From positions 1 to 15,099 of the forward strand of contig JALSPH010000066.1 of the NCBI GenBank assembly GCA_026986055.1: a DNA stretch of 15,099 nucleotides. The letters run 5' to 3'. The DNA comes from Campylobacterales bacterium (GTDB lineage: Bacteria > Campylobacterota > Campylobacteria > Campylobacterales > Hydrogenimonadaceae). The translations under genes were made by a program, and so were the position numbers. The first letter of the stretch is position 1; every line of letters starts with the position of its first letter. The notes beneath the pieces are model-generated. The model had not been told where the DNA came from. It ran no database searches and saw nothing but the letters and a program-made list of their open reading frames with translations. Below are positions 2 through 14,780 of this stretch, piece by piece.

Positions 2-811
2 ATCGTCTCTCTGCTCTCTCTTGGGGTAGGTTCGGTTTTTGCCCTTTTGCTTACCGCTATATTCATGGGGGCCGATCTTGGTTTAGACCCGCTTCTTCTA
101 CGCTCCGTGCATGTACGTTTCATGCTGCTTGGCTGGGTTGGAGTTTTGGTTATGGCGGTAGCTTTTCAGGTTATAGAGATGTTTTACGTTACGCCTTCAT
201 ACCCCAAATATATAAGACTCTTTTTCCCTTTGGGGGTACTCTTTTTACTGCTTCTACATACCGTTTCTCTCTTTTTGGATTCGGCATTGGCAAGCGTTGC
301 CGATATTCTGCTGGCACTCCTTTTTCTTGTTTTCGCGGCAGTTACTATCAAAAGATTGATGCAGAGAAAGCGCCCCGTGGCTGACGCTACGGTATGGCTT
401 TGGCGGAGTGCGATGCTCTCTTTGGCTTTCGCATCTCTCTTTTTTATGCTCCATACCGTTACGGGTTACGGTTGGGCCGGAACCGCATCCGCACTACTGT
501 ACGCTTATTTTATCTTGAGCGTGATTTTCGCCATGAGTTACAAGATAGTCCCTTTTCTCGTATGGTTTCATCTCAACGCAAAAGGTGTCATCGAAACACC
601 TATGATGGGAGATATCATACCCTCAAAAAGTGCTATGCTTCATCTATGGCTTCACTGGGCGCTGTTTGCGGCAGGTGTGGGGCTCTTCTTCACACCGTAC
701 GCATGGAAAGTGGTAGGTGCGGTGATAGCGGTAGAGTCCATCCTCTACGGTATCAACCTGTTTGGTGCCATGAAGATTTACAATTCACTCAAAGATAAAG
801 GGCACCTCTAA
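2..811 (+). CDS. Multi-pass membrane protein, NnrS-like, 5' truncated by the window edge
   Basis: The reading frame is open from base 2 with no stop, so the gene enters from the left and only its last 269 codons are present. The visible part is very hydrophobic, with about seven membrane segments. It aligns well with the C-terminal two thirds of the complete 415-residue protein at 3054-4301. The shared tract YKIVPFLVWF is followed in both by a loop with a P-M-x-x-D-x-(I/V)-P pattern, and MGADLGLDPLLLRSVH matches IGAGVGVDIEKWLGAH, including a conserved His. By that alignment about 150 N-terminal residues lie outside. The pair resembles NnrS-type heme-containing NO-response membrane proteins only distantly, through a His near the start of a helix followed by a Gly-rich helix. 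The last codons and stop (GGG CAC CTC TAA) form one arm of a long inverted repeat. The function is inferred from family resemblance and from NO-related neighbours. Confidence 0.75.
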   Translation: MVSLLSLGVGSVFALLLTAIFMGADLGLDPLLLRSVHVRFMLLGWVGVLVMAVAFQVIEMFYVTPSYPKYIRLFFPLGVLFLLLLHTVSLFLDSALASVADILLALLFLVFAAVTIKRLMQRKRPVADATVWLWRSAMLSLAFASLFFMLHTVTGYGWAGTASALLYAYFILSVIFAMSYKIVPFLVWFHLNAKGVIETPMMGDIIPSKSAMLHLWLHWALFAAGVGLFFTPYAWKVVGAVIAVESILYGINLFGAMKIYNSLKDKGHL

Positions 812-3053: not shown

Positions 3054-4301
3054 TCAATCCTCCAAACCCTCTGTAAAGTTGATCATCCATCTTATCGAAT
3101 AGAACATGAAAACCGCACCGGTAGCCATAAAAGCGGCACCGCCTTTGAAGAGTTCATCGCTTCCAAATAGAAGTCCGACTCCGGCCGTTACCAGCCCTGC
3201 TGCGGTGAACCAAAACTGAAACTCCGCAGCTTTTTTGGGAACCATATCTGCAAGCATAGGCACTTTTCTTTTTCCAACAAGCGGACTATAGCGCTCAAAC
3301 CATACCAAAAAGGGGACAATTTTGTAGAGATGCCCGTTTATCAGAAAAGTGAAAAAACCCATCACAAGAAACCATGTAGCCGTCAGGGCCAGAGTCTCAA
3401 GACGGCCTATAAGAGCTATCGGTGCAAGAATGAGTGCGATTGCCAAAGAGCCGTATCCTACGACCATCGATTTGAACCATATATCGCTCTCTTTGCGAGC
3501 TCTCGTTTTATATATCAGCCATATCTGCCACAAATATAGCCCCGTTCCAATGAAAAGAGCGATAAGCGAGAGAAAACGTATGGAGTCCGAATCTAAAAGG
3601 GCTCCTAAAAAGTAGGCGGCCACACCTGCGCTCATTATCTTGAAAGCCCTGTTGACCGGAGTCTCGTCAAATCCGTGGGAGAGTCCGAACATCGGCAGAA
3701 GAACCATGCTCATACCGACTATAGTCAGAGTCACGTAACCTCCAAGAACCATGACGATGTGGGCTCCCAGCCACTTCTCTATATCGACTCCTACTCCGGC
3801 GCCTATGGCAAGAGACATTGCAAATCCTATCAAAATGCCAAGAAGCAAAAAAGCGTTGGTGACGGCGATGGTTTTTACGGTCAACGAGATGCGCTCCACC
3901 TTTTTAAGAGTCAAAATGGTATCGGCCAGGAATATGAGCATAGAAACGAGTACCATCAAGCCTCCGAATGGAAGAAGCGAAGGCAAAAAGGCGAAGCCTA
4001 CAGCCATAAAAGCCGTTCCTACCGCTAGAAGAGGCCAAATGAGATAGTAGAAATCTACACTGAAGTGCCCAACCTCAAGAACCACCGGAACAAGCTGCGC
4101 CATCGCTCCGAAAATTATCATCATCACAAAACCGAGCAGGAAAAGATGGGCCCATGCGACGACGCTAATATCGTATCTGACGGAGTCGGCTCCGAAAGTG
4201 GGCAAGAGCAGCATCGCTACCAGATAGAGGAGTGACCCTACGGTGAAAAACGGCGAAATAAGAGAGAATGGGGGTGCAAACTCCCTTGAGACCTGAAACA
4301 T
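3054..4301 (-). CDS. NnrS-like polytopic membrane protein
   Basis: This 415-residue integral membrane protein has about 12 predicted helices and short loops. Candidate heme or metal ligands are H52 (AHLFLLGF, second helix), H181 (GAHIVMVLGGYVTLTIVG), H209 (LSHG) and H324 (INGHLYKIVPFLVWF). The H-x4-G-F and the G-A-H...G-G-Y...P-M-F patterns recall NnrS, the heme/copper membrane protein induced by NO, and more remotely heme-copper oxidase helices. The match is weak, and it could be a family of its own. Start is ATG with GGGGGAG upstream. It is the second gene of the operon, 19 bp after a DUF2249 gene and 2 bp before the MIP18 gene. A truncated paralogue occupies 2-811. A role in NO tolerance or in maturing the NO reductase is inferred. 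Confidence 0.75.
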   Translation of the reverse strand: MFQVSREFAPPFSLISPFFTVGSLLYLVAMLLLPTFGADSVRYDISVVAWAHLFLLGFVMMIIFGAMAQLVPVVLEVGHFSVDFYYLIWPLLAVGTAFMAVGFAFLPSLLPFGGLMVLVSMLIFLADTILTLKKVERISLTVKTIAVTNAFLLLGILIGFAMSLAIGAGVGVDIEKWLGAHIVMVLGGYVTLTIVGMSMVLLPMFGLSHGFDETPVNRAFKIMSAGVAAYFLGALLDSDSIRFLSLIALFIGTGLYLWQIWLIYKTRARKESDIWFKSMVVGYGSLAIALILAPIALIGRLETLALTATWFLVMGFFTFLINGHLYKIVPFLVWFERYSPLVGKRKVPMLADMVPKKAAEFQFWFTAAGLVTAGVGLLFGSDELFKGGAAFMATGAVFMFYSIRWMINFTEGLED

Positions 4302-4814: not shown

Positions 4815-6713
4815 TTATAGGGATTGCAGCTCCTTGACAATTTCGGTGAAGACTTCGTACCTCTTTTCGGATGGTGCTATCATCTTCATCACGATATCCC
4901 CCGCCTCTTTCGGAAGTGATGAGTTGAGCTTGCAGATATGGGTCGGAGGGCTCTTCTCTATAGGGTTGAAGTTGTGGACTCCCTGGTACGCTTTCTCTTT
5001 TGTAACGCTCTTGTATATTTCAAGCCCCAAAATAAATATCTCGTTATGTTCGATGTTTGGTTCCCAATCGGCGCTGAAGCCAAGCGGCTCTAGTCCGTTT
5101 GAAGCGGCAACTTCGACATTCCACCGTAGAATGAACTCTATGGCGCCTTTGGAGTAGCGCTTGAAAACTCTGCTTTCGAATCGCTCGAAAGATTCCCTCT
5201 CTTTTCGTAGATCTCTATATGCTTTTGCGAGTTCGGCTACATAGTAACGGGCTTTTGTCAGAGGGACCGTCTTCATGATGGTGTAGGCCTCCTCCTGTGT
5301 CGCTGAGGATTTTCCGCCTATCTGTATATGTACTCCATAAACGGTCTCTCCGCTCTCTTTCGCTTTACAACCGACAAAACCTATATCTCCGAGCTCATGC
5401 ACACCGCACCCCTTTACGCAGGCGGACCAGTGCATTCTTATGGAAGCGTCACCCGGCAGAGGAACCTCTTCCCCCAGATACTCGGCCATCTCGATCGCAT
5501 CGGCTTTGTTGGGTATGACGCCGAAAGGGCAGAGATCTATTCCGGCACAAGCTACCAACTGGTTGAAGTAGGGGGTAGAGATGCAGTGGTATCTGTCGTA
5601 AGGTTTCTGCTCCAACGCTTTTGGTATATCGCTCTCCTCCACTCCAAGGATATAGAGATTCTGAGTGGTCGAGATATTCAACATCCCCTCGCCGTACTCC
5701 GAGGCAAGCTCTGCAGCTTCTATCATGGCCGAGCCGCTGAAGATGCCTGAAGGTACTACCATGTGAAGAGCGAACTTCCCGTTTTGAAGGCGTATACGTC
5801 CGTCGCGCTCTTCGGTTCTGGGCTGCTTTACCATCGTCTCTCCGGCCCTTTGAAACTCCCGGCCCGCTCTCTTTTTGACAACCTCCGTGAGAGCATCCAT
5901 ACCGGCCTCTTTTATAAGAAAGTGGAGGCGATTTTTATTTCTGTTGTCTCTGAAACCGTAATCTCTATATGTGGTTACCAGAGCTTCGTAGAATGGGATG
6001 ATCTCCTCCTCTTTCAGAAAGATATCGGCCGATTCGGCTATAGCTCCCACTTTTCCGCCAAGATATACGTTGAAGCCGTACTCACCATCTTTGACGGCCA
6101 GAGCGAAGCAGCAGTCGTGGGCGAAAAGGTTGCAGCGGTTTGTCATAGAGCCGCTTATAGAGGTGTTGAACTTTCTTGGAAGTGCCGCGATCCACTCCTC
6201 CTTTTTGAGCCAAAGGTTCTGAAGCTCTTTTACTATCGGAGCGGTTTCGATTATGGAGTCGTAGGCAACTCCGTCAAGCGGGTCGCAGACGATGTTTCTG
6301 AAGTTGTCGACACCGGTCTGCCAGCTCGTTATGCCGACACTCTCCAACTCCTCTATAATGTAAGGGATATTCTCTATCTCAAGATATCTCAGTTGAACCT
6401 GCATTCTGGTAGTCAGGTCCATATAGTCCTCTCCATACTCTTTGGCCATGCGTCCCAAAACGGCAGCCTGTTCGCTGCTTAATCTGCCTCCGGGGACCCT
6501 TACGCGCATCATGAACTTTCCAGGAGTTGCAGGCCTGTCGAAAATACCGAAACACTTCAGAAAGTAGTCGATATCCTCTTTCATGATGGAGTCGTAACCC
6601 TCTTTGGAGTACCTTTGAAGCGCTTCCCACGCCTCTTTCCAGGTTCTTCTCTCTTTGAGTTTCTCTATTTTGTTCACTTTTGTATGTCTTGCCGAAACCT
6701 CTTCGAGCTTCAT
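4815..6713 (-). CDS. nirA: Siroheme [4Fe-4S] nitrite (or sulfite) reductase, NirA-like, with C-terminal extension
   Basis: The 632-residue protein belongs to the nitrite/sulfite reductase hemoprotein family, which transfers six electrons to nitrite (to ammonia) or sulfite (to sulfide) in the cytoplasm. The siroheme-Fe4S4 ligands are C389 and C395 (CAGIDLC) and C432 and C436 (CVKGC). Siroheme contacts are suggested by DLTTRMQVQLR (99-109) and the TGVDNFRNIV segment (133-142). Both pseudo-repeated halves are present. About 196 residues follow the last cluster Cys, roughly 90 more than in ordinary NirA, giving a C-terminal extension I cannot assign. Start ATG has AGGAG 7 bp upstream. It is divergent from narK, which favours nitrite over sulfite as substrate and an assimilatory role, probably with ferredoxin as donor. 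Sulfite reductase cannot be ruled out from sequence alone. Confidence 0.82.
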   Translation of the reverse strand: MKLEEVSARHTKVNKIEKLKERRTWKEAWEALQRYSKEGYDSIMKEDIDYFLKCFGIFDRPATPGKFMMRVRVPGGRLSSEQAAVLGRMAKEYGEDYMDLTTRMQVQLRYLEIENIPYIIEELESVGITSWQTGVDNFRNIVCDPLDGVAYDSIIETAPIVKELQNLWLKKEEWIAALPRKFNTSISGSMTNRCNLFAHDCCFALAVKDGEYGFNVYLGGKVGAIAESADIFLKEEEIIPFYEALVTTYRDYGFRDNRNKNRLHFLIKEAGMDALTEVVKKRAGREFQRAGETMVKQPRTEERDGRIRLQNGKFALHMVVPSGIFSGSAMIEAAELASEYGEGMLNISTTQNLYILGVEESDIPKALEQKPYDRYHCISTPYFNQLVACAGIDLCPFGVIPNKADAIEMAEYLGEEVPLPGDASIRMHWSACVKGCGVHELGDIGFVGCKAKESGETVYGVHIQIGGKSSATQEEAYTIMKTVPLTKARYYVAELAKAYRDLRKERESFERFESRVFKRYSKGAIEFILRWNVEVAASNGLEPLGFSADWEPNIEHNEIFILGLEIYKSVTKEKAYQGVHNFNPIEKSPPTHICKLNSSLPKEAGDIVMKMIAPSEKRYEVFTEIVKELQSL

Positions 6714-7088: not shown

Positions 7089-8366
7089 ATGAAGTTTGGC
7101 GAATTGAAGAAGGCGGGTCACTGGCCTACGCTTCTGGCAGCCTTTTTGTATTTCGACTTCAGTTTTATGGTGTGGACGATGTTGGGGCCGCTATCTACGG
7201 AGATATCCGAGTCGCTTGCCGCGAACGGTTTTATACTCTCTCCCGATCAGAAGGCGACTCTTCTGGCTATTCCTATACTTTCCGGAGCGATTTTGAGGAT
7301 CGTACTCGGTTTCGGCGTGGACAAGTTCGGAGCCAAACGCACTGCTTTGACGGCGCAGGCGGTTGTCATAGCTTCACTCTTTTATGCATACTTCAGGGGT
7401 GAGGGAATTACATATAATGAACTTCTGCTTGTCGCATTCGGGCTCGGTTTTGCCGGTGCATCTTTCGCCGTCGCTCTTCCTCAGGCAGGGCAGTGGTACC
7501 CTCCAAGGCTACAAGGGCTTGTTCTGGGGCTTGCGGGTGCAGGTAACATAGGTGTCGTCATAGACTTTCTCTTCGCTCCAAAAATTGCCGAACTTTGGGG
7601 GTGGGATTCGGTCTTTTTGGTAGGTGCGGTTCTCTCTACCTTCATTTTTGTAGTGTATACATTTATGGCAAAAGATGCTCCGCCGGAAGTCTACAAGCCG
7701 AACCCCAAAAAGCTCTCAGACTATATGAAGCTTCTAAAAGATAGAGACACATGGTGGTTCAGCCTCTTTTACGCAGTGAGTTTCGGAGGGTTCGTAGGGT
7801 TCGCCAACTATATGAAGGTTTACCTGATGAACAACTACCAGGTCGATATGAGCGCCTTTGGAGTTGAGTATCTCGGTGAGAGCAACGTAAAGGTCGTCGC
7901 GGGATACTTCGGAGCCCTCTGTATATTCGCAGGTGCGGTTTTAAGGCCTGTAGGGGGAAGCGTAGCCGACAAGCTCGGCGGAGTCAAGTCGCTCTACATC
8001 TTTTTCGGAGCGGTTGCGGTGCTTGCGGTCATAAACGCTACACTGGTGAACAGCTTCTACGTCGCTATTTTGGTTCTCTTTCTTATCATGGCGAACCTGG
8101 GTATGGCAAACGGAGCCGTTTTCCAGCTCGTACCGCAGCGCTTCGGTAAAGATATGGGAATCATGACGGGAATCGTCGGGTGCGCCGGAGGCCTCGGCGG
8201 TACCGCTCTGGTCAAAACTCTTGGATGGTCCAAAGGTGCGTTCGACAGCTACACGGCAGGTTTCTTTATCTTCGCAGGAGTCGTTTTGGTGGCTCTGATA
8301 GGAATCAGTCTGGTCAAGACGCGCTGGAGAACTACATGGGGAGTTACCGCCGGGGGGAGAATATAG
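7089..8366 (+). CDS. narK: NarK-type nitrate/nitrite transporter (MFS)
   Basis: This 425-residue major facilitator protein has about 12 membrane helices. The two nitrate signature regions are visible: GLAGAGNIGVVIDF at 147-160 and GMANGAVFQLVPQRF at 338-352, followed by GIMTGIVGCAGGLGG. The substrate-binding arginines are R70 in helix 2 (ILRIVLG) and R286 in helix 8 (VLRPVGG), each followed by the MFS loop pattern G-x-x-x-D-K-(F/L)-G. The protein would import nitrate, or exchange nitrate and nitrite, across the inner membrane. Start ATG has AAGGAG at 7078-7083. Pairing with nirA points to assimilation, though the nitrate reductase itself is not in the window. A TTGAT half-site at 7013-7017 is the only hint of FNR-type control. 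Confidence 0.9.
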   Translation: MKFGELKKAGHWPTLLAAFLYFDFSFMVWTMLGPLSTEISESLAANGFILSPDQKATLLAIPILSGAILRIVLGFGVDKFGAKRTALTAQAVVIASLFYAYFRGEGITYNELLLVAFGLGFAGASFAVALPQAGQWYPPRLQGLVLGLAGAGNIGVVIDFLFAPKIAELWGWDSVFLVGAVLSTFIFVVYTFMAKDAPPEVYKPNPKKLSDYMKLLKDRDTWWFSLFYAVSFGGFVGFANYMKVYLMNNYQVDMSAFGVEYLGESNVKVVAGYFGALCIFAGAVLRPVGGSVADKLGGVKSLYIFFGAVAVLAVINATLVNSFYVAILVLFLIMANLGMANGAVFQLVPQRFGKDMGIMTGIVGCAGGLGGTALVKTLGWSKGAFDSYTAGFFIFAGVVLVALIGISLVKTRWRTTWGVTAGGRI

Positions 8367-9315: not shown

Positions 9316-10950
9316 ATGAGCAGTGAGCTTTTCAAAGTTTCCAGTTTCTCTCTTGCAAAAGGGAAAGAGCTTGTCAGCGAAGATTTCGCTGCCGTTAAAG
9401 TTATAGAGGAGCTCTGTATCGGTATAGTCTGCGACGGTGTCGGAAGTGCCGAAGCGGGCGGTGAGGCTGCGCGAAGAGTCGTCAACTACCTTATGAACAA
9501 TTTCAAAACCAGGCCCAAAAGCTGGAGTATAGAGAAGTCTTTGAAACACTTCATCTCCGGCATAAACGCCATTTTGTACCGTGAAGGGGTAGATGAGTAC
9601 GAGAGGCCCGAGTACCTGACCACTCTTAGTATCGTAGTGATAGAGGGAAATCGTCTTTATGGAGCCAATGTTGGCGACTCACCCATATATCTTCAAAGAG
9701 GTGGCCATCTTCAGCAGATATCTTTCAGCCATACCAGCGACGAGCCGGGGATGGAGCATGTTTTGACACAGGCTATAGGTATGGCCGAAACGGTAGATCC
9801 ATACCTTTTCGAGAACAACCTCGAAACCGGAGATATACTGCTGCTTGCAAGCGACGGACTCGAGAAGGTTCTGAGCCTGGAAGAGACGCAAAAGAGGCTT
9901 AAAATGGGAGCCTCCTCTTTGATCAAGGCTGCAAGCAAAAAGGTAGACGACGATCTGCCTGACGACACTACCGCCGTCGTCATAGAGATATTGGGAGAGA
10001 GTAGAAGAGAGAAGCTTAAAAAGATAGAGCTTCCTATACCCAAATCTTTGAAAGCAGATGATACGATAGACGGCTACAGACTCATAAAGCCTCTTATACA
10101 GAACGAAAGAACGTGGCTTGTAGAAAAGAAGGGGGTAAAGTACGTTCTCAAATTCCCTCCCGTAGAGGCGGCCGATGATGAGAAGCTTTTGGATCTTTTC
10201 GTGAAAGAGGCTTGGAACGCTTCGCGTCTGAAAGCCGGTTTCTTCCCAAAAGCTGTCATTCCCAAAAACAGAAGTGCCCGTTACTATGTCATGGAGTATC
10301 TGGATGGCCCAAGCCTGAAAGAGGCCATATCGAAAAAGCCGCTGCCTGTAGAAGATGCCATCCAGCTTGGAAAGTTTCTGCTTCACGCCTGCAGCTACCT
10401 TCTGAAATATGACCTAGTTCACGGCGACATAAAGCCTGAAAACGTGATAGTTCTTCAAAGACACGGCAAACGTGTCTACAAGTTGGTCGATTTCGGCTCG
10501 ATTGTAGAGATATTCTCCATAGCTTCAAGAGCCGGTACCCCAAGCTATCTGGCACCGGAGCGTTTTATGGGTGAACCCATAAGCGAGCAGACCGAAATAT
10601 TCGCTATAGGCGTTACACTTTATGAAGCGCTCACCGGAAAGTTTCCGTATGGGGAAATAGAGCCTTTTCAGACTCCGACTTTCAAAGAGCCGAAGGGCCT
10701 GCGCCATTTCAATAAAGCCGTGCCGGCGTGGCTTGAATCTGTCGTCATGAGAGCAATAGAGCGGAACAAGGATAGGCGCTACGAAGTATACAGCGAAATG
10801 GAGTACGAGCTTACCCATCCCGAAAAGGTAAAGCCTTACTATCCGGAAGGTGTTACTCTCTTTGAGAGGGAGCCTGTAAAAACATATAGACTCCTTTTCA
10901 TAATATCACTTCTTTTCAACATGCTTTTCATAGCACTGCTTTTGAGATAG
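9316..10950 (+). CDS. PP2C-type phosphatase fused to a Ser/Thr protein kinase, with C-terminal membrane anchor
   Basis: This is a 544-residue bifunctional signalling protein. Residues 1-227 are a PP2C phosphatase with metal ligands in SED (21-23), CDG (39-41), VGD (119-121), SDG (179-181) and PDD (215-217). Residues about 250-505 are a Hanks-type kinase: VLK (K279), HGDIKPEN (369-376, HGD instead of HRD), DFG (392-394) and APE (413-415). The nucleotide loop has no glycine-rich motif (LIKPLIQNERTWLVEK), and the usual Asp of helix F is E428. Residues 525-543 form one membrane anchor at the C-terminus. Similar fusions sit beside nitrate transporter and nitrite reductase genes in gammaproteobacteria, so control of nitrate assimilation is likely. 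GGAG lies 6 bp before the ATG. No strong promoter is visible. Confidence 0.88.
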   Translation: MSSELFKVSSFSLAKGKELVSEDFAAVKVIEELCIGIVCDGVGSAEAGGEAARRVVNYLMNNFKTRPKSWSIEKSLKHFISGINAILYREGVDEYERPEYLTTLSIVVIEGNRLYGANVGDSPIYLQRGGHLQQISFSHTSDEPGMEHVLTQAIGMAETVDPYLFENNLETGDILLLASDGLEKVLSLEETQKRLKMGASSLIKAASKKVDDDLPDDTTAVVIEILGESRREKLKKIELPIPKSLKADDTIDGYRLIKPLIQNERTWLVEKKGVKYVLKFPPVEAADDEKLLDLFVKEAWNASRLKAGFFPKAVIPKNRSARYYVMEYLDGPSLKEAISKKPLPVEDAIQLGKFLLHACSYLLKYDLVHGDIKPENVIVLQRHGKRVYKLVDFGSIVEIFSIASRAGTPSYLAPERFMGEPISEQTEIFAIGVTLYEALTGKFPYGEIEPFQTPTFKEPKGLRHFNKAVPAWLESVVMRAIERNKDRRYEVYSEMEYELTHPEKVKPYYPEGVTLFEREPVKTYRLLFIISLLFNMLFIALLLR

Positions 10951-11147: not shown

Positions 11148-11189
11148 TTGACCAAGATCAAGAAGAGAAAAAAGTCCCCTATGTATACT
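11148..11189 (+). promoter_or_regulatory. FNR/CRP-type promoter of the NO reductase genes
   Basis: TTGACCAAGATCAA (11148-11161) is a near-consensus FNR-type palindrome. Exactly 22 nt later is TATACT (11184-11189). The start would be near 11196, centring the box at -41.5 and giving a 27-nt leader with AAGGAG before the ATG. The box half-sites and spacing equal those of the DUF2249 operon promoter. Confidence 0.7.
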
Positions 11190-11222: not shown

Positions 11223-11822
11223 ATGAGTTTCAAGACTTCGGTGGAACTGTTGAGTTTCCACTGGATGGCATACACGATCTACGCTTTGCTGATCATATCG
11301 ATCATAGCGTGGTTTGCGTACAACCTGACACGAAAAGAGAGAGTCAAGTCGATCGTAAGAATCCCTTTCTACGGCTATATCGCCTTTCTCGTTGCCGGAG
11401 GAGTCGGACACCATATCTTCACGTACAATACGATTCCCTGGGTCTCAGAAGATATAATGCGCCACGAGATCAAACCTAACCAAACTTTCGACATAACCAT
11501 CGAAAACCATAAATGGACTCTTCCTTCGCAAAAGATGGTTGTTCGAAAAGGCGAGAAGGTGCTTTTCAACGTCGGTAGCAAAGATCTTACCTATGGTTTT
11601 GGCCTATTCAGAAAAGATGGCACTATGGTCACGCAGATGCAGGTGCTCCCTAACCATAAGAACGATCTTTTGTGGACGTTTCACGAGTGTGGAAGTTTCG
11701 ACCTGACATCTACGGAGTATGCAGGTCCCGACCAGTATGACGAGCATACCGGTAAAGATCTTATGATGGTTAAAGATGCGGTCGAAGTTATAGGCTGCGA
11801 TGAAAAAGTGGCAAGTAAGTAG
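11223..11822 (+). CDS. Heme-copper NO reductase-like subunit II, CuA site lost
   Basis: The 199-residue membrane-anchored subunit has helices at about 11-34 and 48-66, then a cupredoxin-like periplasmic domain (about 88-192: FDITIENHKWTLPSQKMVVRKGEKV and onward). In oxidase subunit II, CuA is held by a His after the D-V-x-H-x-F strand and by C-x3-C-x3-H-x2-M. Here the equivalent places read DLTYGF (Y124) and S-T-E-Y-A-G-P-D-Q at 163-171, so the two Cys are Ser and Ala and the His is Gln, while E165 is kept. It therefore cannot hold CuA, yet its fold is evidently conserved. It is followed 9 bp later by subunit I. The electron donor is unknown; electrons may pass directly to the heme of subunit I. 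Confidence 0.85.
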   Translation: MSFKTSVELLSFHWMAYTIYALLIISIIAWFAYNLTRKERVKSIVRIPFYGYIAFLVAGGVGHHIFTYNTIPWVSEDIMRHEIKPNQTFDITIENHKWTLPSQKMVVRKGEKVLFNVGSKDLTYGFGLFRKDGTMVTQMQVLPNHKNDLLWTFHECGSFDLTSTEYAGPDQYDEHTGKDLMMVKDAVEVIGCDEKVASK

Positions 11823-11831
11823 GAGGCTAAG

Positions 11832-13499
11832 ATGAGTTTTGTAAAAACGTTGATAAACGGTACAGATTTTGACCATACCAAGCTGAATGCGCTTCAGAAG
11901 GTGACGCTTAGAGCGGTCGTAATGTCTTTTCTATTCTATGGTCTTGTAGCCATAGAGGGTATGATCATGAGAATGGTTCAGACAGGACCTTCGGCACCGA
12001 TTCCAAAGATGTTCTTCGAGCCCGATCACTACTTCTCCATAATGACCGTGCATCCGATCGTCGGAATTTTCGGCTCTACTTACCAGTTGGTTTTCGCTGC
12101 GTTCATGTTTCTGGTCCCTTATTTGACTAAAAAACCTCTGTACAGCGTGAAGCTTGCCAACGCCGTATGGCTGCTTATAACGATAGGTACGGCACTTGCA
12201 TGGATAGCCGGTTTCATTTGGCAGTATGCACCCCTTTATACGCTCTATTGGCCTCTACCGGCAGATACCGAGCAGTTTAAAATAGTCGGCGGCTTCGTAT
12301 TCGTTATCGGAGTGGCTCTTATAATGGTCGGAACGATGGGGTTCATATACAACATATATGCAACTATATTCGCCAGAGTAGGAGTACATAAAAACAAGAC
12401 GACAAAAGAGCTTTTGATCTCCGGTTTCGGAATAGATGGCCTTATGAACCTCATTCACAAACTGACCGGAAAACCGCCATACAGCAAAGAGCCTGCACTC
12501 TCCCTTCCGGTTGTCGCCATATTCAGAGGAACCGTAGATACATTTCTGGATGCCATAGTGATTCTTAGTGCGGGTATTCTGGTGCTTGTCTATCTGATAG
12601 CCGAGTCTGCCGGAGTAAGCTGGGATGTGCATGCCGTCGATGCACTTCTTTACAAAAACTGGTTCTGGTGGGGGCTTGACCTGGTCGCCGACGGTCTCGT
12701 ACTGATATATGTAGCCGGTTCATGGTATCTTTTGGCGACTATCATCACGGGGCAGAAGCTCTTCATGGAGAATGTGGCGCGTGCCGCACTTCTGCTTGAG
12801 CTGTTTGTATCGTGGATGGTATGGTCCCACCACCTGCTTGCAGATCAGCCTCAGCCTGAGATGATGAAACTGGTTTCCGGAGAGATGGTTACCGCTTTCG
12901 AGCTGCTTACACAGGGGCTTGCACTCTTCATAACACTCGTTACGCTCTGGAAAGCGCGACCTCTTAAAATGACACCGCCTCTTGCCTATCTGCTCGGTGG
13001 TCTCATAGGTTTCGGGTTGGCAGTTCCTGCAGGAATCATACAGGCCGATATGGGTATGAACCGTGTTCTGCACAATACTCAGTGGATCAGCTTCGCGCAC
13101 TTCCATATAGCTTTGATAGTTGGTCTTTACATGACCCTGTATAGTGCGCTATATGTTCTTTGGCCGCTGGTCACCAACAATACGACCCTCTTTTCCAAAA
13201 AACTTACGTGGGCCCACTTCTGGCTCTATCTGATAGGCGGAGTAGGAATGGGTGCGCTCGGCGGAATGGCCGGTCTGGACGGTATGCTCAGGCGACACCT
13301 ATATGTGGACGGAGAGTTCAACACTCTTATGGTCGGAGCCGCAATATTTGGTTCTATGGTTTTGATAGCGTGGGTGATCTTCCTCTTCAATATCGTGATG
13401 AGCGTAGGTCTAAAAGGTCTTGTAGGTATATTCATGCCCGCAAAAGATCCAACGGCAAGTTACGGTATAGAGCCGGAACCGGCGGCCGTAAAGGCATGA
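11832..13499 (+). CDS. Heme-copper superfamily subunit I, gNOR-like nitric oxide reductase
   Basis: The 555-residue catalytic subunit has about 13 helices. H74 (TVHPIVGIFG) and H425 would bind the low-spin heme and H423 (FAHFH) the active-site heme. H333 and H334 (WSHHLL) are two ligands of the second metal. The third, normally His in W-x-x-G-H-P-E-V-Y of oxidases or in H-L-W-V-E-G of cNorB, is D283 in WFWWGLDLVADG. D283-L-V-A-D287-G aligns residue for residue with NorB H-L-W-V-E-G, so the NorB Glu is also Asp. The oxidase Tyr is absent, which argues against O2 reduction. This Asp replacement is, as I recall, the mark of the gNOR class proposed from Campylobacterota genomes. AGGAGG precedes the ATG. 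Expression is probably with subunit II from the FNR-type promoter. Confidence 0.85.
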   Translation: MSFVKTLINGTDFDHTKLNALQKVTLRAVVMSFLFYGLVAIEGMIMRMVQTGPSAPIPKMFFEPDHYFSIMTVHPIVGIFGSTYQLVFAAFMFLVPYLTKKPLYSVKLANAVWLLITIGTALAWIAGFIWQYAPLYTLYWPLPADTEQFKIVGGFVFVIGVALIMVGTMGFIYNIYATIFARVGVHKNKTTKELLISGFGIDGLMNLIHKLTGKPPYSKEPALSLPVVAIFRGTVDTFLDAIVILSAGILVLVYLIAESAGVSWDVHAVDALLYKNWFWWGLDLVADGLVLIYVAGSWYLLATIITGQKLFMENVARAALLLELFVSWMVWSHHLLADQPQPEMMKLVSGEMVTAFELLTQGLALFITLVTLWKARPLKMTPPLAYLLGGLIGFGLAVPAGIIQADMGMNRVLHNTQWISFAHFHIALIVGLYMTLYSALYVLWPLVTNNTTLFSKKLTWAHFWLYLIGGVGMGALGGMAGLDGMLRRHLYVDGEFNTLMVGAAIFGSMVLIAWVIFLFNIVMSVGLKGLVGIFMPAKDPTASYGIEPEPAAVKA

Positions 13500-13615: not shown

Positions 13616-14281
13616 TTGGGTATAGCCAAATCGGAGTTTGGAATTTTTGGTAAATCATTTGACGGGGAGGATGGATTGACAAATCTTGAGCGTGTCGCCA
13701 TGGAGATCAAAACGGTCGGTCTGTACGATCTTATTCTTCAGGATGTTCAGAAGCTTCTTGGAAAGAGCAGGCCGACAAAGGAAGAGATTTTAGAGGTTCT
13801 GAAGGAGCATCCGGAGATATTGAGAGACTATAAGCAGACCAATGTCGAGTACAATCTGAGCAATATACATCTAAAAGATATTCCACTCGAAAATCTTGAT
13901 GAAGAGTGTCTTGAAGAGGCTAAAAAGATAAACGATAATCTATCGATTTTAAGGGAGATAGAGAAGTATACTCTCGATTTTGCCCAAAGTTCGACACTCG
14001 TCATCATCTTTTCCGTGGAGTTTTTCGTTCTCTTTTCCGTACAGTACTTTATAGTTCTTTTGAATCTTAAAGAGTATCAGTGGTGGATATATGGAGTTTT
14101 CGCACTCTCTATTGCAGCGGCATGGTGGTATGCCAAGCGTGAACAGAAAAAGTATGAGAGAGAGAATCTGCGTTTTGAGAAACTCTATGATGAAACTCTT
14201 GGGCTTCTTGAAGATCTAGAAAAAAGAGGGTGTGTAAAAAAGAGTGCGCTTTGGATAATGGAGAGCGATGAGCATGTCTGA
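13616..14281 (+). CDS. Hypothetical membrane protein with two helices and coiled coil
   Basis: I do not recognise this 221-residue protein. Residues 1-125 are soluble, helical and acidic. Hydrophobic helices follow at about 127-149 and 155-173, then a charged, probably coiled-coil tail (175-205) and a single Cys (C206). The most likely start is TTG at 13616, with AGGAG at 13603-13607 8 bp upstream; the next ATG (codon 29) has no comparable site. It lies 116 bp after the NO reductase genes, beyond a hairpin, and overlaps the following YcxB-like gene by 14 bp, so those two are translationally coupled. A link to NO reduction is only positional. Confidence 0.7.
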   Translation: MGIAKSEFGIFGKSFDGEDGLTNLERVAMEIKTVGLYDLILQDVQKLLGKSRPTKEEILEVLKEHPEILRDYKQTNVEYNLSNIHLKDIPLENLDEECLEEAKKINDNLSILREIEKYTLDFAQSSTLVIIFSVEFFVLFSVQYFIVLLNLKEYQWWIYGVFALSIAAAWWYAKREQKKYERENLRFEKLYDETLGLLEDLEKRGCVKKSALWIMESDEHV

Positions 14282-14780
14282 TCTGCCGGTGCTGACACTG
14301 GAGTGGAACGAAGGTACCTTCCTGAAAGGGGCCAAGCTCGTTTACGACTACGACATGCGAAACAGTTGGCGCCGCTACGTTGGGTGGGGGTTCATAGCAC
14401 TTACGCAGTTCGGTGTCGTCGGTGCCGTTCGTCACGGTGCCATAGGGCTGCTTCTTCTTTCCACTTTTCTGGTGATATACTGGTATTTTCTTCGCTGGCC
14501 TTTAAGGAAGCGGGCACTTCTTCGTTTTTTCAGGAAGTCGCAGCCTGGAGAGAAAAGATTGAAGCTTGAAGTAGAAGAGGGAGGATTGTGCATCGATGAC
14601 AGGTGTGTACCCTGGCATCAGTTTCGACGCGTCATAGCTGCGAAAGAGGGGTACCTGCTCGATATGGGCGACGCTTTTTTGTTTGTTCCTAGAAATATTT
14701 TTCCGGATAGCGAAAGCCGCAACTCTTTCGTTGCACTTTTGAAAGAGAAGATAGAACGCTATAATACGTTCGAAATTTAA
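14268..14780 (+). CDS. YcxB-like membrane protein
   Basis: The 170-residue protein has an N-terminal strand region, two membrane helices (about 38-54 and 56-76) and a C-terminal soluble domain (80-165). In the latter, the pattern W-P-L-R-K...L-E-V-E-E-G-G-L...V-P-W-H-Q-F-R-R-V...Y-L-L...F-L-F-V-P-R-N-I-F resembles the YcxB-like domain (PF14317), whose function is unknown. The start is ATG at 14268 or, equally plausible, ATG at 14274; both overlap the end of the preceding gene. The two genes probably form a small transcription unit ending in the palindromic gap at 14781-14859. Confidence 0.7.
   Translation: MSMSDLPVLTLEWNEGTFLKGAKLVYDYDMRNSWRRYVGWGFIALTQFGVVGAVRHGAIGLLLLSTFLVIYWYFLRWPLRKRALLRFFRKSQPGEKRLKLEVEEGGLCIDDRCVPWHQFRRVIAAKEGYLLDMGDAFLFVPRNIFPDSESRNSFVALLKEKIERYNTFEI

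Follow-up and report, generated by a model that had tools for sequence, protein, structure and literature searches.

A putative gNOR-type nitric oxide reductase operon with aspartate at two active-site positions in a Hydrogenimonas-like bacterium

What reaction might be catalysed by a heme-copper enzyme in which aspartate stands where a histidine ligand of the second metal is expected? The question is raised by a gene on a 15,099 nt stretch of DNA, hereafter the window, which makes up the entire contig C66 in a 1.69 Mb genome that is 83% complete. The initial annotation described the gene product as a nitric oxide (NO) reductase-like subunit I with Asp in place of a CuB/FeB His and a second Asp in place of the NorB glutamate, and assigned it to the gNOR class. 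Several questions follow. Is the alignment on which the description depends sound, and are the residues conserved? To which class does the protein belong? What would the enzyme do in organisms that carry it? Our reading, to which we give a probability of roughly three in four, is that the operon (Table 1) encodes a two-subunit gNOR, a quinol-fed reductase of NO to N2O with iron held by His and Asp, controlled by a regulator of the FNR/CRP type and serving mostly as a second NO scavenger.

Table 1. Operon features, predicted functional residues and flanking genes in the window.
Feature	Position	Strand	Basis or remark
FNR-type palindrome TTGAC-N4-ATCAA, likely regulator site	11148..11161	+	75 nt before subunit II start codon
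Subunit II, N-terminal membrane part and cupredoxin domain without CuA ligands	11223..11822	+	Profile match
Subunit I, gNOR-type catalytic subunit of the heme-copper superfamily, 555 aa	11832..13499	+	
H74, predicted low-spin heme ligand	12051..12053	+	Kept in 95/95 covering loci
D283, where Thermus ba3 has the helix-VI CuB/FeB His H233	12678..12680	+	Profile alignments and motif spacing; MAFFT differs by one column
D287, where oxidases have the cross-link Tyr and NorB has Glu	12690..12692	+	2/5 profile alignments and motif spacing
H333 and H334, two kept second-metal His ligands (predicted)	12828..12833	+	95/95 covering loci
H423 and H425, predicted high-spin and low-spin heme ligands	13098..13106	+	96/96 covering loci
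Unnamed partner gene of 201 aa with TTG start; helical and probably membrane-spanning	13676..14281	+	Profile search
YcxB-like membrane protein, overlaps partner gene	14268..14780	+	PF14317, 26.8 bits
NarK-type transporter	7089..8366	+	
PP2C-kinase fusion	9316..10950	+	
NirA-like siroheme reductase	4815..6713	-	
Multi-helix membrane protein	3054..4301	-	
Multi-helix membrane protein	2..811	+	

Subunit I matches the Pfam COX1 family (PF00115) with 172.6 bits, and its residues 277-288 read WFWWGLDLVADG. The roles of the corresponding residues in cNOR, qNOR and ba3 are established. HMMER profile alignments with five ba3 variants all place D283 over the helix-VI His of Thermus ba3, in keeping with the annotation. 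D287 lies over the ba3 Tyr, four residues further on, in two of these alignments, and in the other three HMMER opens a gap there. MAFFT, applied to a mixed set, opens a gap of one column that puts D283 beside the His rather than on it. The statement that this stretch aligns without gaps to the cNorB H-L-W-V-E-G motif therefore holds by motif spacing but not in the MAFFT alignment. The ungapped alignment is the better of the two, because residues 266-306, which span the D283 stretch, form one predicted helix and because a gap-free pattern is shared across families. This pattern, W/F/Y and then an aromatic or small residue followed by x-x-[H/D]-x-x-x-[Y/E/D], is present in two of four ba3, all four A-type, all six cNOR and both qNOR sequences; it missed two ba3 sequences and matched a different stretch in the three cbb3 sequences.

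The predicted structure has the COX1 fold, and the 50 fold matches listed all belong to A-type COX I or cbb3; that no NOR or ba3 chain is among those 50 excludes nothing. Likewise no NOR chain gave a sequence-profile match among PDB sequences at E up to 10. The model was also to show whether D283 points at the second metal. It supplied the single helix, but pLDDT averages 53-61 over residues 271-290, and also around D283 and H333, and the geometry was abandoned.

A tblastn search matched subunit I in 97 of 99 loci; the window itself is among the 97 as two copies, and some genomes appear twice. H74, D283, D287, H333 and H334 are invariant in all 95 loci that cover them, and H423 and H425 in all 96; matched loci that do not cover a given residue are contig fragments. 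The retained His ligands, the Asp at the NorB Glu position and the missing cross-link Tyr thus stand as first described, and a chance motif is ruled out. The motif WWGLDL[V/I]ADG is present in all 240 proteins of two lists of nearest relatives (the best 120 of 2968 and the best 120 of 3307). The second list, for which the query was cut from genome G010, has 14 aligned members that share 56-60% identity with the window protein, and a Hydrogenimonas thermophila protein is identical to that query. Subunit I of a Hydrogenimonas sp. locus is 97% identical to the window protein and that of genome G002 98% identical; relatives titled Sulfurimonas and Sulfurovum occur among the nearest loci (best 80 of 121). 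One gene of a more distant type (L015; genome G014, contig C139) begins at a contig end and has one in-frame TGA, reflecting either a pseudogene or an assembly error.

Subunit II adjoins subunit I in all 89 loci with room for it, own copies and duplicates included (84 identified by script; four minus-strand loci and one with zero gap by reading). The window sequence alone has no Pfam match, and two of 11 relatives give a weak match to COX2. A profile of the subunit matches ba3 subunit II and CuA domains with E values of 4.5e-8 to 8.6e-4 (3.6e-5 for the ba3 CuA domain, down to 4.5e-8 for engineered variants), which identifies a cupredoxin-fold second subunit. The positions of the CuA His, Cys and Cys are occupied by Y124, S163 and A167 in the window, and by Tyr, Ser or Thr, and Ser or Ala, respectively, in all 86 distinct sequences, none of which contains a CxxxC motif. 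Loss of the CuA ligands would fit a quinol enzyme, and a passage of PMC8906906 terms gNOR 'quinone-oxidizing'.

Assignment of subunit I to gNOR, as originally proposed, is supported by the Asp at the active-site position, the relatives in Sulfurimonas and Sulfurovum, the CuA-less subunit II and a separate clade in a superfamily tree. The protein is a heme-copper subunit I by its PF00115 match and the heme ligands H74, H423 and H425, with D287 at the active-site Tyr/Glu position in every covering locus. Table A4 of PMC8756737 gives D as the gNOR active-site letter, with Sulfurimonas, Sulfurovum and Persephonella as its three genera, and N and Q for sNOR and eNOR; the letter D sets the present protein outside these two classes. 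A superfamily tree, a check of the kind first suggested, was built with four ba3, four A-type, six cNOR, two qNOR and three cbb3 references. In it gNOR forms its own clade (support 100/100), apart from the sampled cNOR, qNOR, cbb3 and oxidases; its gNOR side was drawn from fetched relatives, those from Sulfurimonas and Sulfurovum included. Published gNOR members include Damo_1118-1119 (a passage of PMC6094997). Membership of cNOR is rejected since D283 and D287 replace the His and Glu of HLWVE and the protein falls outside the six sampled cNOR sequences. For qNOR the objections are a chain of 555 aa with a separate subunit II and DLVADG instead of an HLWVEG-type motif, and for B-type ba3 the Asp at both helix-VI positions and a place outside the four sampled sequences. 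With regard to the lack of a conserved proton channel expected of a gNOR, S309 and T312 of ba3 face Q361 and A364 when the alignment is read by eye, but E351, E357 and T360 do not vary among the 34 sequences aligned.

The same tree groups gNOR with the A- and B-type oxidases (96/97), the closest PDB sequences are those of Thermus ba3 oxidase, and those relatives that have names (best 120 of 2968 and best 120 of 3307) bear names of cytochrome c oxidase subunit I, cbb3-type or other. Could the protein then be a quinol oxygen reductase from the B-type side whose active site is unusual and which works at trace O2? We consider this improbable. The helix-VI cross-link Tyr is needed for O2 reduction; here the Tyr of the sampled ba3 and A-type sequences is replaced by Asp and one metal His is also replaced. 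Moreover, 57 of 65 genomes examined already have a cbb3-like PF00115 match of over 340 bits (a label verified by NCBIfam in one genome and by motif in five), and the occurrence of gNOR tracks that of a cd1-type gene, as set out below.

For a gNOR, electrons would pass from quinol, the likely donor because subunit II lacks CuA, to the low-spin heme b and on to a high-spin heme b3 paired with the second metal, where two NO would be converted to N2O. The second metal would be bound by H333, H334 and the carboxylate of D283 in place of the three His (plus Glu) of cNOR, with D287, at the NorB Glu position, a candidate further ligand or proton donor. A set of two His and a carboxylate would favour non-heme iron over copper, and the chemistry presumably differs from that of cNOR and qNOR. 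A point against this arrangement is that Asp is shorter than His and might fail to reach the metal. Murali et al. reportedly describe novel gNOR active sites. Some other reaction at so odd a metal site (NO dismutation, for instance, or chemistry on hydroxylamine or nitrite) is highly improbable. PDB sequence comparison met no solved chain with an active site of the D283/D287 type and the sequence results leave the substrate unconstrained, but the association with cd1-type and nosZ genes, together with the gNOR assignment in the published passages cited, favours NO reduction to N2O.

The occurrence of the operon was assessed in 149 genomes of the order, own genome included, of which 45 carry gNOR (48 matches less three weak ones, G033, G035 and G142, with E of 3e-8 to 3e-4 and 25-29% identity). 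A profile search finds the partner gene downstream of subunit I in 38 of the 45, separated from the subunit I match by 7-180 bp, and in none of the 104 genomes without gNOR (Fisher p 1e-28, kinship ignored). The seven gNOR genomes that lack it all carry the 59-60% gNOR type. By locus, the partner follows gNOR in 78 of 79 main-clade loci with at least 800 nt of room; 83 loci, duplicates included, were tested and five had no partner, L013-L015 being of a type about 56% identical and L017 a 26% match not counted as gNOR. Of the 64 loci that extend far enough to show it (1500 nt or more), 56 have the YcxB-like gene next after the partner. The window partner protein has no Pfam match over cut-off, nothing in the PDB matches it at E up to 1, and its structure model is weak. 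One relative is named 'Calcium uniporter protein' in UniRef, a name that the analysis does not support. It is conceivable, if rather doubtful, that gNOR is a three- or four-component enzyme with this product as an obligate partner, either an extra subunit or an inserter of non-heme iron for a 2-His/2-Asp site. NorQ and NorD insert FeB into cNOR (abstract of PMC9976466), and the analogy with them is speculation. The partner gene, the more testable, and the role as a second reductase are the new leads from this work.

Upstream of subunit II the pattern TTGAY-N4-RTCAA is present in 62 of 81 distinct 150-nt regions. With duplicates retained and regions extended to a maximum of 250 nt, 67 of 86 contain it, where mononucleotide shuffles predict 0.3. 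The box lies mostly 66-80 nt before the start, suggesting that a regulator of the FNR/CRP family controls the operon. The NssR site of C. jejuni presumably differs from the TTGAC-N4-ATCAA box seen here. In Wolinella, three Nss regulators answer to nitrate, NO and N2O, and Nss-like genes are said to be present in free-living marine relatives (passages of PMC6682613).

Which physiological role would such an enzyme have? A cd1-type gene is present in 41 of the 44 gNOR genomes (own left out) as opposed to 20 of 104 without gNOR (Fisher p 7e-18, kinship ignored), and nosZ in 33 of 44 as opposed to 26 of 104 (p 1.7e-8, kinship again ignored). The cd1-type, or nirS-like, label denotes a PF02239 match with E below 1e-40, which leaves out nine of 70 genomes with weak matches. 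The scores fall in two bands, one near 1e-116 to 1e-123 and another near 1e-47 to 1e-63; the latter may represent divergent NirS or NirN-like genes, hence the cautious label. Twenty of the 61 cd1-type genomes lack gNOR.

A cNOR-like PF00115 match accompanies the cd1-type gene in 38 of the 41 genomes that also have gNOR and in all 20 that do not. This count of 58 out of 61 was made by hand, and one of the 20 (G081) shows fragments only; the three exceptions (G057, G066 and G148) may be due to assembly gaps. The motif HLWVEATWE was read in three of the cNOR-like sequences, and six tree rows, those three among them, show a NorB motif; the remaining labels depend on score band and neighbourhood. 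In 33 of 34 genomes with both on the same contig the cNOR-like gene is at most 3 kb from the cd1-type gene, while gNOR shares the cd1-type contig in 13 of 18 genomes compared, at a distance of 3.3 kb to over 1 Mb. The idea that gNOR is the sole NO reductase of denitrification is thereby rejected for most genomes, and gNOR is usually a second NO reductase since most genomes with gNOR and a cd1-type gene carry a cNOR-like gene as well. This also counts against our reading, since NO removal in most of these genomes can be explained without gNOR. On that reading its role would mostly be to scavenge NO as a second reductase, next to the cNOR encoded in the nirS-like cluster.

A purely detoxifying NO reductase, uncoupled from growth, as for example in nitrate ammonifiers, would carry out the same reaction and overlaps with our preferred reading. 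Three genomes (G010, G088 and G155) have gNOR and neither a cd1-type nor a cNOR-like match, and in most others the cNOR-like gene adjoins the cd1-type gene, both as this possibility would have it. Set against this, they are only three of 44, and with nosZ in 33 of the 44 the N2O produced could be respired. We judge detoxification alone to be a plausible but lesser possibility than a scavenging gNOR in the broader sense.

The assembly to which the window belongs contains nosZ, and no cd1-type gene or other PF00115 match was found in the 83% that is present. The absence of cbb3-like, cNOR-like and cd1-type matches, all of which occur in the near relative G002, probably reflects incompleteness. 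The related Hydrogenimonas enrichment strain BAL40 has nap, nir, nor and nos genes and consumes N2O, and did not grow on nitrate under the conditions tested (passages of PMC6279868). Of the genes adjoining the operon, the NarK-type transporter is found in 14, the PP2C-kinase fusion in 15 and the NirA-like siroheme reductase in 11 of 80 loci of relatives, in which the length of flanking sequence differs. The two multi-helix membrane proteins of the window share a KIVPFLVWF motif and have no Pfam match; from reading the sequences we would guess at a small heme-copper-related or NnrS-like family.

Why does this matter? In 45 of the 149 sampled genomes of the order, gNOR would provide a route to the greenhouse gas N2O. 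The enzyme is easily missed in surveys because its named relatives carry cytochrome c oxidase names; NCBI lists P0016, P0121, P0131 and other gNOR subunit I proteins as 'cbb3-type cytochrome c oxidase subunit I'. The operon offers a defined unit for experiment, comprising the enzyme, the box and a partner gene that, in the genomes sampled, never occurs away from gNOR, and would show whether a heme-copper enzyme works with a carboxylate replacing a metal His.

The gNOR class is already known and biochemically uncharacterised, and a further member from a Hydrogenimonas-like bacterium is described here. The name (norGH) is credited to Hemp & Gennis 2008, Sievert 2008 and Murali et al. in the literature passages, and a 2024 paper, in the passage concerned, speaks of gNOR as only 'proposed' (PMC11388526). 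The gNOR passages of this literature do not describe the His-to-Asp ligand change, the partner gene or the FNR-type box. Compared with published gNOR there is the same letter D, two subunits and a cupredoxin subunit II, and no difference was found. With cNOR (NorBC) the protein shares the helix-VI spacing of a ligand, three residues and a carboxylate (H-LWV-E as against D-LVA-D here), two His on the next helix and the His ligands of both hemes. It differs in having Asp for His and Asp for Glu, no cytochrome c subunit and a separate clade. Thermus ba3 oxidase is the best PDB sequence match of both subunits, yet here the Tyr is missing, as are one metal His and the CuA ligands. Quinol is the presumed donor in qNOR as in gNOR, but each of the two sampled qNOR proteins consists of one chain (759-761 aa) and has HLWVEG or HMWVEG.
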